Source of the DNA: Nitrospira sp.
GTDB lineage: Bacteria; Nitrospirota; Nitrospiria; Nitrospirales; Nitrospiraceae
Assembly (NCBI GenBank): GCA_024330945.1
Contig: JANDJJ010000012.1
Coordinates: 1 to 36,979, forward strand
Reading direction: 5' to 3'
Length of the DNA: 36,979 nt
Positions within the stretch are counted from its first letter, which is position 1; each line of letters opens with the position of its first letter. The translations under genes were made by a program, and so were the position numbers. This document shows positions 30,151-36,376 of the stretch, one piece after another. The notes below the pieces were generated by a model. That model saw only the letters and a list, made by a program, of their open reading frames with translations, had not been told where the DNA came from and did not search any database.

Positions 30151-33012
30151 TCAGGCTGCCTGTCGGAAGGTGCTGGTTTCCTCGTGATACTGTCGCAGCA
30201 CCGGCACGAGTTGGAGAACCGCCGCTTCCAACTCGGTAACGAGAGGCCTCACCTCTTCCAAACGTTTTTGGCGGGCGAGCTCTTCGATCCGGCCGGCCAC
30301 CGATGCCACTTGCCCGGCGCGCAGATTGCCGGCCGCTCCCTTCAAGGTGTGGGCCGCCCGCTCGACCGTCGTGGCGTCGCCCGTCTCAAGACCTGTTTTG
30401 ATTTCAGCCAACCTCGTCTGATGTCGGTCCATAAACAAAACGACCAGTTCCCGGATCAGTCGATGATCGCCTCCCAAATTGGCCTCCAAGTCGGCGAGGT
30501 CGAACGTGTCGGCGTCAACATGGTTCACGATCGGTCGCTTGTCAATCCGGTCCGGAGATAGTGCGGGGCGTGGAATCCACCGATCAAGGACCGAACGCAA
30601 CGTCTCCAATTGAATCGGCTTGGCGAGGTAGTCGTCCATGCCGGCGGCGAGACATTGCTCGCGATCTCCTTTCATGGCGTTGGCCGTCACAGCGATGATG
30701 GGAATGCGCCTGGGGCGGGATGCCCCGGCCTTGTGTGTTCCTCCGGCTGTGGCATCGGCGGCTGTCCCGGCGTCCGCTTCACGTTGCCGGATGATTTTCG
30801 TAGTCTCAAAACCGTCGAGGATCGGCATTTGACAGTCCATGAGAATCGCGTCGTAGGTCTTCTCGGCCAGGGCGTCGAGTGCTTCCTGTCCGTTGTTTGC
30901 GAGCCGGAAGTCGTAGCCCAGTTTCTGGGCCATGCGCGCCGCCAGTTTCTGATTGATTTCGTTGTCTTCAACGATCAAGAGAGACACCCGCCGCGAAGCA
31001 TGGACCGCCGGCGCGCTCTCTGTCGATGAGGAGCCCGGGCGGATAGGGTGACGGGCTGGGGATTCGCTTCCACGAGCCAAGGCCTTGCGAAGACACTCCT
31101 GCAATTGATTGTGACGGATCGGTTTCTGGAGATAGCCGACCGGCCCGACGGACTGTCCCCGTTCAGTGTAGTCTCGTTGAAGGAGAGGAGTGAGAAGAAC
31201 GACGGGAGTCGTTCTTCCCTCGGCGCGTTGCCGCAGTTCCCGAACGAATTGCAGACCGTCTTTCCTCGGCATGATGACGTCGGCGATCACAAGCTCGAAG
31301 GGAGTCCCGCTCGTCGCCGTTTCCGCGAATCGGCGCAAGGCTGCATCGGCGTCTTCCACGGTCTCCGCGAGCATGCCCCATCCGCTTATGAGCTCGCGCA
31401 GCACTCTCCGACCGGATTCATGGTCGTCCACGATCAACACGCGATGTCCCGCGAGGTCGTCCGACGGAACGATCGCTCGCGGAGAGTCGGCCTGCTTCGC
31501 GAATCGAGCCGTGAATCGAAACGTGCTTCCTTGACCGACCGAACTGATCAGAGTGATGCGGCCACCCATGAGTTCGATCAATTGTTTTGAGATCGTCAAG
31601 CCGAGACCCGTGCCGCCGTACCGTCTGGTCGTCGAACTGTCTCCCTGCACGAAGGGCCTGAACAATTTGGCCTGGGTGTCCGGCGGGATGCCGATTCCGC
31701 TGTCCGTGACGTCGAAACGGATCGTGGCGTGGTCCGGCGAGTCTTCCTCCAGAAAGACTTGCAGCGAAACCTCTCCCTGTTGGGTGAACTTGACGGCGTT
31801 TCCGATCAGATTCGTGAGCACTTGGCGCAGGCGCGCGGGGTCCCCCCGGAGGGCGATAGGCACGTTCGCGTGAACGAGTCCGGTCAATTCAAGCCCCTTG
31901 GCGTCGGCCTGCTGAGCGAATTGCGCCAGTGTGTCCTCCACCGTGTCGCGCAGATTAAAGTCGATCGATTCAAGCTCCAGCTTTCCCGCTTCGATTTTGC
32001 TGTATTCGAGCACGTCGTTGATCACGCGCAGCAGCGACTCGCCGCATTGCCGAATGGTCGTCGCATAGGTTTTTTGTTCCGGCGAGAGGGGCGTTTCCAA
32101 CAGGAGGCTGGTCATGCCGATGACTCCGTTCATCGGTGTGCGGATCTCATGACTCATCATAGCGAGAAACGTTGCTTTGGCTTTCGCCGCATCCTGGGCG
32201 ACGGTCAGCGCCTCATCCAACCGATGATTGGCGTCACGCAGCTCTTGGGCGGTGAGCATCAGTTCTTGTTGCGCCTTGCGGATATTGGTGACGTCGATCC
32301 CATAGCCGCGAACCAGGCCGTGCGTGGCGACCGGGCAGAGTATCCATGAGAAGTTGGCATCCGGTAGCGAGACGTTCACTCCTTGCAGAGGCTCGCCGGA
32401 GCGGAGAGCGTGCGCCACGAGATCGGGAAGATTCGGCGGCAAGACGGCCGGTGTGCCGTTCGATCGATAACCGAGAGCGGCGAGCCGAGCCGTCATGGCC
32501 GGATTGGCGTACAGCATGGTTCCGTCGCGATCCAGCTCGACGACGGGCGAGGGCGATTCTTCCGCGATGGCGGCGAGCCGGTCCCGCTCGGCACGCAGCT
32601 CTTCTTCACGAGACAAATCCCGCAGGCTGATCGCCAGATTCGGCGCATTGGAGCGGCCGTCGTGATCAAGAGCATGACAGGTCCATTCGACGGGAGTTTC
32701 GCCGGCGATGCCGATCCGGAGCCGCACGGTCGCGCGCACCGTGGGCTCTCTTGATGCCGCCACGGATTTGAGCCGGTCGAGCACCTGGGAGGAGGTGTCG
32801 GAATCGGTCAGAGCGGCCCAGATGTCGGGAAACGACTGCCCGGAGAGAGCGGCTTGCGGCCGTCCGAGCAGACGCGCCCCCTCCAGGTTGCTCCACGTGA
32901 TGGACCCGTCGTCGCGCAGCAGCACGATCCCGAAGGGAAGATTGTCGAGGAGGGCGCTTACGGAGAGGTGATGGAATTCGTCGTGGAGTGTATGTCGGCT
33001 TGTCGGCGTCAT
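30151..33012 (-). CDS. Hybrid sensor histidine kinase with two receivers and an HPt domain
   Basis: A 953-residue phosphorelay protein with no obvious membrane segment. Two PAS-like domains (about 15-135 and 145-245) lead to a short coiled coil, then HisKA with His288 in MMSHEIRTPMNG, and the ATPase with NLIGNAVKFT, DSGIGIP and GGTGLGLTISKQL. Receiver 1 has Asp578 (LVIADVIMP); receiver 2 has Asp726 (ILMDCQMP) and an insert at about 748-768. The HPt domain ends the protein with His888 in AAHTLKGAAGNL. The layout is that of BarA/EvgS-type kinases, so the output regulator is separate. Its ATG overlaps the stop of the HD-GYP gene (ATGA), linking the kinase to c-di-GMP turnover. Confidence 0.93.
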   Translation of the reverse strand: MTPTSRHTLHDEFHHLSVSALLDNLPFGIVLLRDDGSITWSNLEGARLLGRPQAALSGQSFPDIWAALTDSDTSSQVLDRLKSVAASREPTVRATVRLRIGIAGETPVEWTCHALDHDGRSNAPNLAISLRDLSREEELRAERDRLAAIAEESPSPVVELDRDGTMLYANPAMTARLAALGYRSNGTPAVLPPNLPDLVAHALRSGEPLQGVNVSLPDANFSWILCPVATHGLVRGYGIDVTNIRKAQQELMLTAQELRDANHRLDEALTVAQDAAKAKATFLAMMSHEIRTPMNGVIGMTSLLLETPLSPEQKTYATTIRQCGESLLRVINDVLEYSKIEAGKLELESIDFNLRDTVEDTLAQFAQQADAKGLELTGLVHANVPIALRGDPARLRQVLTNLIGNAVKFTQQGEVSLQVFLEEDSPDHATIRFDVTDSGIGIPPDTQAKLFRPFVQGDSSTTRRYGGTGLGLTISKQLIELMGGRITLISSVGQGSTFRFTARFAKQADSPRAIVPSDDLAGHRVLIVDDHESGRRVLRELISGWGMLAETVEDADAALRRFAETATSGTPFELVIADVIMPRKDGLQFVRELRQRAEGRTTPVVLLTPLLQRDYTERGQSVGPVGYLQKPIRHNQLQECLRKALARGSESPARHPIRPGSSSTESAPAVHASRRVSLLIVEDNEINQKLAARMAQKLGYDFRLANNGQEALDALAEKTYDAILMDCQMPILDGFETTKIIRQREADAGTAADATAGGTHKAGASRPRRIPIIAVTANAMKGDREQCLAAGMDDYLAKPIQLETLRSVLDRWIPRPALSPDRIDKRPIVNHVDADTFDLADLEANLGGDHRLIRELVVLFMDRHQTRLAEIKTGLETGDATTVERAAHTLKGAAGNLRAGQVASVAGRIEELARQKRLEEVRPLVTELEAAVLQLVPVLRQYHEETSTFRQAA

Positions 33013-34256
33013 GGTGCAGCCTCGACCGTGACGTCGTCCAAATACAAGGCGATGTTGACGAATTCGTGAGCCGGGTCGAGCACGCGCGCGATGGCGGGAG
33101 CCGCCTCACCGCCGGAAGGCGCCGCTAGATCGACAGGATGAGGCTTGAGATACGCTTCCCCTCGCGGTCCCTTGATGATCAAAACTTTCGGCTTGAGCCG
33201 CGCCTCGGGATTGAGGCCTGTCACGATGGCCTGCTCGCCGGTGTTCAGAAGCACCAGGCTTCCGATCGGATAGACGCCGACGATCCGAACGGTTGTTTCG
33301 ATCAGCGCCGCGTCGAAGCGGCCTTCTTTGCCGGAAAGGAACAGTCGGCGCACGGCGTCGTTCGGGAGCATGGCCGGACGTCCTCCGCGGCGGCTCACCA
33401 TGCCGTCGTACCAGTCGACGATCCCGACGATTTGGGCAAGACGCGAAATATCCTGTCCCCCCCGTCCATCGGGAAATCCGCTGCCGTCCGTGCGTTCATG
33501 GTGTTCGGCCACGATTCGTTTCACCTCGTCGTGCACGTCGTCGCATTCGGCGAGCACGGTCAGGCCCAATCGCGGGTGTTGTTCCAGCAGCGCGCGTTCC
33601 TGGCCGGTGCATTCATGACGATTTCGGACGAGGTTGCGCGGCAGTCGAAGATAGCCGGCGTCGTGAAGCAGGGCGCCCGTTCCGAGGAGTGTTTGTGCAT
33701 CTTGATCGAGACCATATTCGACCGATACGGCCAGCGAGAGAATGCAGGTGTCGAGTGTGTGGGCGGCGAGGGATTGGTCGAACCGCTTGATTTTGCGAAC
33801 GGCCAACTGCGTCGTCACCGCCTCGCGGTCGTTGAGAATCCGTCGCATGATGTTGACCACGACGGCCTTCGCGACGGCCGAGGGCGGAGGGCCACCCTGC
33901 ATGAGCCGATCGAACATTCGTTCGATGGCTTCTTCGGCGGCGCTATAGAAGGCGTCGGCCGAATCCGCTTGGTCCGGCGACGCTGCAATGATTGAATCCG
34001 GAGCGCCCGCTTCCTCTCCGTCCTGACCGTTGCCCCCGTCGCTCGATGGTTTTGCGACCACGTCTTTTCCTTTGCGGGGGTCGATGGTGACGGTTCGAAT
34101 GCCGCAACTCCGCATGGTGTCAATGACGGCCGTGCCCTCGATGAGACGCTTATGCGAGAGAAAAGGGGTTCGGTACCACGGCACGTCGACGCCGACGACG
34201 TACATGCCGGGTGTCAGATCGTCGATGGAAATGTGTTTCAACTTGCTCTCGGCCAT
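33009..34256 (-). CDS. HD-GYP domain protein with DUF3391, variant active-site motif
   Basis: HD-GYP proteins cleave c-di-GMP. The 415-residue product has an N-terminal DUF3391 domain (about 7-60), an acidic linker, the HD-GYP domain (about 150-300) and a C-terminal beta-rich segment. The metal ligands are present: His166, His198-Asp199, His227, His252-His253 and Asp281 or Asp284. The signature is altered: HDIGK reads HDAGY at 198-202, with the lysine replaced by tyrosine, and the GYP reads GFP (HHERTDGSGFP, 252-262). Activity may therefore be changed or lost. It overlaps the hybrid kinase downstream by 4 nt and is divergent from a canonical paralogue 165 bp away. Confidence 0.9.
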   Translation of the reverse strand: MAESKLKHISIDDLTPGMYVVGVDVPWYRTPFLSHKRLIEGTAVIDTMRSCGIRTVTIDPRKGKDVVAKPSSDGGNGQDGEEAGAPDSIIAASPDQADSADAFYSAAEEAIERMFDRLMQGGPPPSAVAKAVVVNIMRRILNDREAVTTQLAVRKIKRFDQSLAAHTLDTCILSLAVSVEYGLDQDAQTLLGTGALLHDAGYLRLPRNLVRNRHECTGQERALLEQHPRLGLTVLAECDDVHDEVKRIVAEHHERTDGSGFPDGRGGQDISRLAQIVGIVDWYDGMVSRRGGRPAMLPNDAVRRLFLSGKEGRFDAALIETTVRIVGVYPIGSLVLLNTGEQAIVTGLNPEARLKPKVLIIKGPRGEAYLKPHPVDLAAPSGGEAAPAIARVLDPAHEFVNIALYLDDVTVEAAP

Positions 34257-34421: not shown

Positions 34422-35663
34422 ATGAACAAACGGATTGCAGTGGATGAGCTTCGGCCGGGGATGCGCGTGGTCGCGATCGATCGATCCTGGCTGGTGACGC
34501 CCTTTTTGAGTCACCGGCTGACGATCGCCTCGCGGGAGCAGGTCGAGCAACTGAAGGCTTGCGGGGTTCGAATCGTCGAGATCGCCGCAGACGGGGCGGG
34601 CGGGGAGGAGATCCGCCAAGACGAATACGATGATGAATACGATCGCTCGACAGAGGAGGGCGGAGAGACCGTTTCTTTACGGTCGGCGGCGGATGTCGCT
34701 CCCGAGCCGACCTCGTTCGAAGAGGAACTGAAAACCGCCAAGGAGGTGTACCGGGCCGCCAAGGCCGTGATCCAAGGCGCCATGCAGGACGTGCGACTGG
34801 GGCGGGCGATCAACATGGAAGCGGTCGATCGAGTCGTCTCGGACATGGCGGAAAGCGTGTTGCGTAATCTCGATGCGTTGACCAGCCTCTCTCGACTCAA
34901 GCGGTTCGACGAATACACGTTCTACCATTCGGTCAACACCTCATTGCTCGCGATGGCGTTGGGGCGTGACCTCGGTTTCGCCAAGAGCGAACTCCATCAG
35001 GTCGGCGTCGGGGCTCTGTTGCACGACATCGGTAAGACCAGGATTCCCAACGAGTTGCTCAACAAACCGGCGCGTCTCGAGCCAGATGAGATGGAACTGA
35101 TGAAACAACACGTGATGCGCGGGGTGGAGATCTTGTCGGAGACGACCGGTTTATCCGAGGTGCATACGAAGCCGGCCCTCGAGCACCATGAACGGGTCGA
35201 TGGAACCGGCTATCCCTTCGGCCGTTCCAAAGACGGGATCAGCCGCTTCGGGTTGATCGCCTCGATCGTCGATATCTATGACGCCATCACCAGTGATCGA
35301 TGTTATCACCGGGGGAGGGCGTCCCACGATGCGCTGCAATACCTGTATCTGCTGTCGCTCAAAGGCCATCTCGATGCCGGGTTGGTGCAACGATTCATTC
35401 GCACTGTGGGGGTGTATCCGGTGGGATCCCTCGTCGAGCTGAACACGGGTGAAGTGGCGGTGGTGCGCCGGGTGCATCGAGAGGCGCCGCTGGCTCCACT
35501 TGTCATCATTGTAAAAAGCGCAAGCAACGTGTTGCTCTCCAAGCCGATCGAATGCGATTTGCGGGAGGAGGCGAAGATTTCCGGACGAACCATCCACGCG
35601 GTGAAAGGGCCGCATGACGTTGGGATCGATCCTGCCGTGTACCTTGATAAGGAGCCGATATGA
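34422..35663 (+). CDS. HD-GYP c-di-GMP phosphodiesterase with DUF3391
   Basis: This is the canonical paralogue of the leftward gene, 413 residues. DUF3391 covers about 5-55, opened by VDELRPGMRVVAIDRSWL. A long acidic linker (EIRQDEYDDEYDR) precedes the HD-GYP domain (about 155-305): His169, HDIGK at 201-205, His230, and HHERVDGTGYP at 255-265, with IVDIYDA as the final metal aspartate. It should hydrolyse c-di-GMP to GMP or pGpG. It has no receiver domain, so control is not by direct phosphorelay unless through partners. A C-terminal region (RTVGVYPVGSLVELNTGE) is shared with the paralogue. The TGA overlaps the PilZ gene's ATG. Confidence 0.93.
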   Translation: MNKRIAVDELRPGMRVVAIDRSWLVTPFLSHRLTIASREQVEQLKACGVRIVEIAADGAGGEEIRQDEYDDEYDRSTEEGGETVSLRSAADVAPEPTSFEEELKTAKEVYRAAKAVIQGAMQDVRLGRAINMEAVDRVVSDMAESVLRNLDALTSLSRLKRFDEYTFYHSVNTSLLAMALGRDLGFAKSELHQVGVGALLHDIGKTRIPNELLNKPARLEPDEMELMKQHVMRGVEILSETTGLSEVHTKPALEHHERVDGTGYPFGRSKDGISRFGLIASIVDIYDAITSDRCYHRGRASHDALQYLYLLSLKGHLDAGLVQRFIRTVGVYPVGSLVELNTGEVAVVRRVHREAPLAPLVIIVKSASNVLLSKPIECDLREEAKISGRTIHAVKGPHDVGIDPAVYLDKEPI

Positions 35664-36376
35664 AAGAGACGATCGAGACCGTCCCTCCATCGGCTTGTTT
35701 TTTGACCGTCGGGCTTGCGGTCAAACTCTCGCTCGTGATGAACGGCCGCAAGATCGTCCACGGCAGTACGTTGCTGGGGTGGAAAGAGTCGGTCTGGTTG
35801 ATCTGCGAATGGCCGTCGCAGCTTGACTGGGTGTCCGGCTTGGCGGAGAAAACACCGTGCACGATCAGTTATCTGCGAGAAGGAAAACTCGTCGGCTGTC
35901 GAACGGAGATTCGCGGAGCCATCGCAACGCCGGTGCCGCTGCTGTTCCTGGCCTATCCTCGGCAGGTCGAGGAAATGCATCTCCGGCAATATCCGCGCGT
36001 GTCGTCCAACGAGCCGGCCGTGTTAAGCCGAATCGGGAGTCGAAGCAAGAATGGGGGAGGAAGGGGGTTGGCGGACCATATCGGCGGTCTGGTGAGGGAT
36101 CTGAGTCTGGGCGGTTGCCGCATCGCCGTGGATCGGACTCCGCCATGGCTCAGGACCGGCTTATCCATTCATCTGGAATTTGAATTGCCGGGATTGGGCC
36201 ACGTCACAAATCTGACGAGCGTTGTCAAAAGTATTGACCAGGACAGGGATCACCATCTGATCGGAGTCGAGTTCCAATTCGACAGGATGGAATACATCGA
36301 GTATCGAGGGTGGGGCGGCTCGGTCGAGCAGGCGATCTGGCGGTGGGTGAGGCTCAAAAGTGACGACATCGGCTAG
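35660..36376 (+). CDS. PilZ domain protein, YcgR-like
   Basis: A c-di-GMP receptor of 238 residues. The N-terminal part (about 1-105) resembles the YcgR flagellar-brake-type beta-barrel: SLLGW-like TLLGWKESVWLICEWP is typical. The PilZ domain (about 108-225) has the two binding motifs RQYPR (RxxxR, 109-113) and DLSLGG (147-152, D/NxSxxG). Between them is a Gly/Lys-rich loop of about 30 residues, longer than usual. Its ATG overlaps the HD-GYP stop (ATGA), so the enzyme that lowers c-di-GMP is made together with a protein that senses it. The target of the effector is not shown by the sequence. Confidence 0.88.
   Translation: MKETIETVPPSACFLTVGLAVKLSLVMNGRKIVHGSTLLGWKESVWLICEWPSQLDWVSGLAEKTPCTISYLREGKLVGCRTEIRGAIATPVPLLFLAYPRQVEEMHLRQYPRVSSNEPAVLSRIGSRSKNGGGRGLADHIGGLVRDLSLGGCRIAVDRTPPWLRTGLSIHLEFELPGLGHVTNLTSVVKSIDQDRDHHLIGVEFQFDRMEYIEYRGWGGSVEQAIWRWVRLKSDDIG

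Follow-up and report, generated by a model that had tools for sequence, protein, structure and literature searches.

The window analysed here is a 36,979-nucleotide stretch of a Nitrospira sp. genome (GenBank assembly GCA_024330945.1, contig JANDJJ010000012.1), whose closest named relatives are Nitrospira metagenome-assembled genomes at 91-92% identity. It contains a gene for a variant DUF3391/HD-GYP protein in which the active-site lysine is replaced. The stop codon of the variant gene overlaps the start codon of a hybrid histidine kinase gene downstream, and on its other side, in divergent orientation, lie a canonical DUF3391/HD-GYP paralogue and a PilZ gene (Table 1). HD-GYP enzymes usually destroy the bacterial signal cyclic di-GMP (c-di-GMP). 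A first-pass annotation had reported HDAGY and GFP in the variant, beside a neighbour with the canonical HDIGK and GYP, and the motifs are as it described; HDAGY was confirmed by a pattern match on the minus strand (G000:C33:33640-33668). The DUF3391 profile (PF11871) matches residues 6-123 of the variant with 73.3 bits against a Pfam cut-off of 27.8, and the HD_5 (HD-GYP) profile matches residues 136-318 with 86.3 bits against a cut-off of 27.2. Both profiles are matched by all 34 aligned orthologues.

The variant was compared with PmGH, an active trinuclear HD-GYP phosphodiesterase (PDB 4MCW/4MDZ, PMC4159591), residue equivalences being taken from alignments and from the residue numbers in PMC4159591. 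Residues D160, S162, H166, H198-D199-A200-G201-Y202, H227, H252-H253-E254-R255, GSGF261P (G260-F261-P262), D281, D284, R290 and R293 of the variant correspond to D183, E185, H189, H221-D222-I-G-K225, H250, H276-H277, G284-Y285-P286, D305, D308, R314 and K317 of PmGH. The metal-ligand set H...HD...H...HH...D is thus complete, as the first-pass annotation had held, and of the two aspartates it had offered for the last position, D281 aligns with the metal ligand D305 and D284 with D308. Besides the HD-GYP fold and the seven metal ligands, the two proteins share D183, D308 and R314, and the K317 position is basic in both (R in the variant); at the N-terminus PmGH has a GAF domain and the variant DUF3391. 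There are three departures: K225 is replaced by Y202, Y285 by F261, and E185 by S162, the last a substitution beyond those first reported. The variant therefore lacks the lysine of the HDxGK motif. At the E185 position it has neither the Glu/Asp of the trinuclear E/D-T-G subgroup of HD-GYPs nor the Tyr/Phe of the Y/F dinuclear subgroup (PMC4159591), Tyr being the usual residue of its own family. It also lacks the GYP tyrosine, but F, Y and H interchange at that position within the class, so that this difference does not discriminate.

The lysine had been taken to contact the c-di-GMP phosphate. In the PmGH structure, however, K225 hydrogen-bonds the acid D183 as well as two metal ligands, E185 and D222, and the D183/K225 pair lies more than 5 Å from O3' of c-di-GMP (PMC4159591). 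The PmGH lysine is thus a second-shell or relay residue rather than a phosphate contact, although the lysine of PA4108 does form an ion pair in a docking model; elsewhere the lysine is proposed to act within a leaving-group protonation relay (PMC3774798). The K225A change abolishes c-di-GMP hydrolysis by PmGH, while Y285A leaves activity barely affected (PMC4159591), and so the meaningful change in the variant is that of the lysine and its partner position, not GFP.

Orthologues, defined within Nitrospira as matches above 600 bits, were sought in a sample spread evenly over the phylum and were found in 48 of the 54 Nitrospira genomes. All 48 contain the coding pattern HDxGYx[RS]xP, the six genomes without the HDxGY pattern are those without an orthologue, and a reversed control pattern gave almost no matches; HDxGY is therefore not a chance occurrence, nor is it unique to this genome. 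Among 35 Nitrospira orthologues, Y202 and all of the His and HD ligands are present in 35, and D281 in 33. Position 162 is S in 34 and T in one, and position 261 is F in 27 and Y in eight. Lysine loss is accordingly a lineage-wide trait and GFP is not; GYP to GFP was rejected as a class signature, given the free drift between F and Y and the activity of PmGH Y285A. At the lysine position other Nitrospiraceae have Y, except that one genus includes ten genomes with F (an HDIGF subclade) and another genus has E; Q, H or Y occurs in the sister family, and L in a further group of DUF3391 paralogues. No member of the non-lysine clade has lysine. Position 162 changes along with it: non-lysine proteins always have S, T, G, D, N, A or Q there (76 Y-type proteins one of S, T, G and D), whereas 28 of the 30 rows with lysine have Y. 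The metal-ligand columns are invariant or nearly so at roughly 45-50% identity, and the R290 and R293 positions, equivalent to the guanine-contacting R314 and K317 of PmGH, are kept in most class members. Lysine is kept in 12 of 12 homologous HD-GYP proteins from plasmids of Pseudomonadota, Paenibacillus and Deinococcus, plasmid records rather than chromosomes being what was sampled of other phyla. In sum, the variant belongs to a conserved lysine-free DUF3391/HD-GYP subfamily of the order Nitrospirales. The literature searched made no mention of the motifs HDAGY, HDVGY, HDIGY, HDTGY or HDxGY.

In a tree of 70 rows, from which both trait columns had been removed, the distribution of lysine and non-lysine proteins required one change, against a mean of 22.6 when the states were shuffled, and none of 500 shuffles gave so low a number. 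Support in the SH-like approximate likelihood-ratio test (SH-aLRT) was 81 for the non-lysine branch and 99 for the Nitrospiraceae tyrosine clade; support for the deepest branch is only moderate, since the tree was a quick one and its outgroup rows are long. The pattern fits a single loss of lysine in an ancestor, after which the position would have diversified. Since the replacement varies among Y, F, Q, H, E and L, the function of the lysine appears to have been lost rather than taken over by a new catalytic residue. Tyr202 was considered as a replacement general acid, a proposal weakened by the Phe of the HDIGF subclade. Its aromatic ring may simply take up the room that the canonical tyrosine of position 162 has left free. 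Pairwise ratios of nonsynonymous to synonymous substitution rates (dN/dS) were 0.14-0.20 for the variant gene in four Nitrospira comparisons and 0.09-0.12 for the canonical neighbour. The variant gene is under purifying selection, and is somewhat less constrained than its neighbour.

Other departures were seen among the relatives. Members of the leucine paralogue group (L032, at G000:C149:24288-25526, with L113 and L114) have HDIGL, are small or polar at the position of E185 and have lost the E of HHE, and in one of them the GYP motif is lost too; this group is probably more degenerate than the HDAGY variant. In one other genus of the family (L088 and L089) HDIGE or HDLGE is combined with an Asp where PmGH has E185. 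The charges are thereby arranged contrary to those of the canonical lysine form, in a way reminiscent of the HDxxE of YfbR, and kinase-like genes lie on either side of the HD gene. DUF3391/HD-GYP genes of a Pseudomonas aeruginosa plasmid (L138) and a Rhizobium plasmid (L135) are annotated as two separate open reading frames, and the HD domain of L135 is interrupted by an in-frame stop.

Table 1. Genes and codons of the variant HD-GYP locus, in window positions
Feature	Position	Strand	Remarks
Variant DUF3391/HD-GYP gene	33009-34256	minus	415 aa, ATG start; HDAGY, S162/Y202
Ser162 codon	33771..33773	minus	PmGH E185 position; Tyr in canonical paralogues
HDAGY codons, residues 198-202	33651..33665	minus	Y202 in place of PmGH K225; by codon arithmetic from 34256
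Phe261 codon of GFP	33474..33476	minus	F/Y variable across the class
Hybrid histidine kinase gene	30151..33012	minus	PAS, HisKA, HATPase, REC, Hpt; ATGA overlap with the variant gene
Canonical DUF3391/HD-GYP paralogue gene	34422-35663	plus	Divergent; HDIGK, GYP, Tyr at the E185 position
PilZNR-PilZ (YcgR-like) gene	35660..36376	plus	RxxxR and DxSxxG motifs; ATGA overlap with the paralogue gene

The kinase has, by motif, the phosphosites H288, D578, D726 and H888. A homologue of it lies directly downstream of the HD gene at 73 of the 78 non-redundant loci with enough sequence, the sister family included, and two of the five loci without it are of the leucine type. On the divergent side, in the Nitrospiraceae, there is a PilZNR-PilZ gene, present at 32 of 35 tyrosine-type loci; at these 32, the canonical paralogue gene is adjacent in 14 and absent next door in 18, and it is absent from the sister-family loci too. 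Judged by this conservation of neighbourhood, the stable unit is the HD protein with the kinase (and PilZ), not the HD protein with its paralogue, which makes the kinase the likelier partner. Among 20 genomes, seven have orthologues of the HD protein, kinase and PilZ protein, 12 have none, and one has only a kinase fragment at a contig edge. This co-occurrence is suggestive only, in a set that was hand-picked, is not phylogenetically independent, and includes some incomplete genomes among those lacking the genes. The PilZ protein of the window has intact c-di-GMP-binding motifs, and its orthologue adjoins the variant gene at loci without the canonical gene too. The divergent intergenic region yielded neither a sigma-70-like promoter nor a terminator.

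Pairing of an HD-GYP response regulator with a hybrid histidine kinase is also known from the RpfG/RpfC type of system, which the variant locus resembles in its genetic linkage. Unlike RpfG, however, the variant has no REC domain, which rules out a phosphoacceptor role like that of RpfG. An AlphaFold2 model of the variant (mean predicted local distance difference test score, pLDDT, of 76) matched Bd1817 of Bdellovibrio best (PDB 3TM8, Z 25), followed by DvhD, PmGH and PA4781. Bd1817 is an inactive dinuclear HD-GYP that, by alignment, likewise has a non-lysine residue (HDYGH) and a small residue (T) at the K225 and E185 positions; it lacks the GYP Tyr, one of the HH pair and the last Asp, whereas the Nitrospira class keeps all of the ligands, HH and D281 among them. 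The model of the canonical neighbour also matched Bd1817 best (Z 24.5), and the match is thus a property of the architecture and not of the variant. Sequence profiles, by contrast, do tell the two families apart: that of the canonical-paralogue family scored 136 bits on the active PmGH and 49 on Bd1817; that of the variant family scored 68 on PmGH and 69 on the inactive Bd1817, which is thus its joint best match. The HD-GYP domain of DvhD from Desulfovibrio vulgaris (PDB 9RBZ, same fold, Z 21.7) is a c-di-GMP receptor (PMC13090378), and its use as a binding switch is the working principle that we propose for the variant. DvhD has lost its metal ligands (SQ for HD) and kept the lysine, the reverse of the variant.

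The reading that we favour, tentatively and at a little below an even chance of being correct, is that the variant is a metal-bound, hydrolysis-impaired nucleotide sensor or a slow trigger enzyme that signals to the co-transcribed kinase. Without the Lys-Asp relay, c-di-GMP hydrolysis would be lost or very slow; the metal site would still hold the phosphate of c-di-GMP or of a relative, and the state of the protein would be passed by protein contact to the kinase. A sensor or slow enzyme reconciles the lost lysine with the fully kept metal site, and the varied replacement fits poorly with a new catalytic group or with Tyr-OH chemistry. We count in favour the K225A result, the single lysine/non-lysine change, the swap at position 162, the kept ligands, the dN/dS values, the kinase linkage and co-occurrence, the profile scores and the DvhD precedent. 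The earlier suggestion that the variant may bind without cleaving is plausible in a class conserved with all of its metal ligands. Several points weigh on the other side. The metal ligands and D160, equivalent to the proposed general acid D183, are kept as in an active enzyme, while the inactive HD-GYPs Bd1817, DvhD and PA2572 have lost some ligands; D183 could act without K225; the K225A result may not carry over from PmGH, a trinuclear E-type protein; and the fold likeness to Bd1817 was rejected as a class-specific sign of inactivity, being shared by the canonical neighbour.

The main rival, between which and a sensor sequence cannot decide, is a metal-dependent phosphodiesterase or phosphatase that is still active but whose second-shell chemistry has changed, and which would use D160 as general acid and may act on another substrate such as pGpG, cyclic GMP-AMP (cGAMP) or a non-c-di-GMP nucleotide. 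All seven His/Asp ligands, D160 and HHE are kept across the class. Active HD enzymes outside the HD-GYPs have a different residue one turn after HD, as in the HDxxE of YfbR (cited in PMC3774798), and one genus here has exactly E. PA4781 prefers pGpG (PMC8177086). An enzyme of this kind is somewhat less probable than a sensor, and is less easily squared with the dead K225A mutant of PmGH and with a replacement residue that is unconserved, unlike a catalytic one. We think it improbable that the variant is a regulatory subunit of the divergent paralogue, for example in a heterodimer, as had also been suggested. The two genes are divergent neighbours of shared origin here and at 14 of the 35 tyrosine-type loci, their products are 33% identical over full length, and lysine-type paralogues elsewhere in the remaining genomes could still serve as partners; yet kinase and PilZ remain where the paralogue gene is not next door. 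A decaying pseudoenzyme without nucleotide function, a scaffold only or a drifting protein, seems more improbable still. It would account for the loss of a residue essential in PmGH and for evolution faster than that of the neighbour, but it sits poorly with nearly invariant metal ligands, strong purifying selection and a kinase linkage kept throughout the order. The sensor reading can also be drawn more widely, as a lineage-wide subfamily in which a phosphodiesterase would have become a metal-dependent, non-hydrolysing nucleotide sensor directly controlling its co-transcribed kinase, linking second-messenger and phosphorelay signalling across nitrifying Nitrospiraceae; in that full form we regard it as doubtful.

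In the genome of the window (G000, 95% complete) there are two matches to GGDEF, none to EAL and about eight loci with HD_5. HD-GYP proteins are thus its only recognised c-di-GMP phosphodiesterases, and they far outnumber the cyclases, an excess that non-hydrolytic members such as the variant may partly explain; HD-GYP gene counts may accordingly overstate phosphodiesterase capacity. Almost no HD-GYP work on Nitrospira was found in the literature searched. The near-universal HD-GYP lysine is replaced in a conserved, kinase-linked branch of Nitrospira and its relatives, and this natural class, which has lost the lysine and kept the metal site, separates the roles of metal and lysine in a family whose mechanism is still debated. 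The variant branch probably senses or slowly processes c-di-GMP rather than clearing it, and it provides a concrete candidate for a link from c-di-GMP to a kinase in Nitrospira, which are key nitrifiers.

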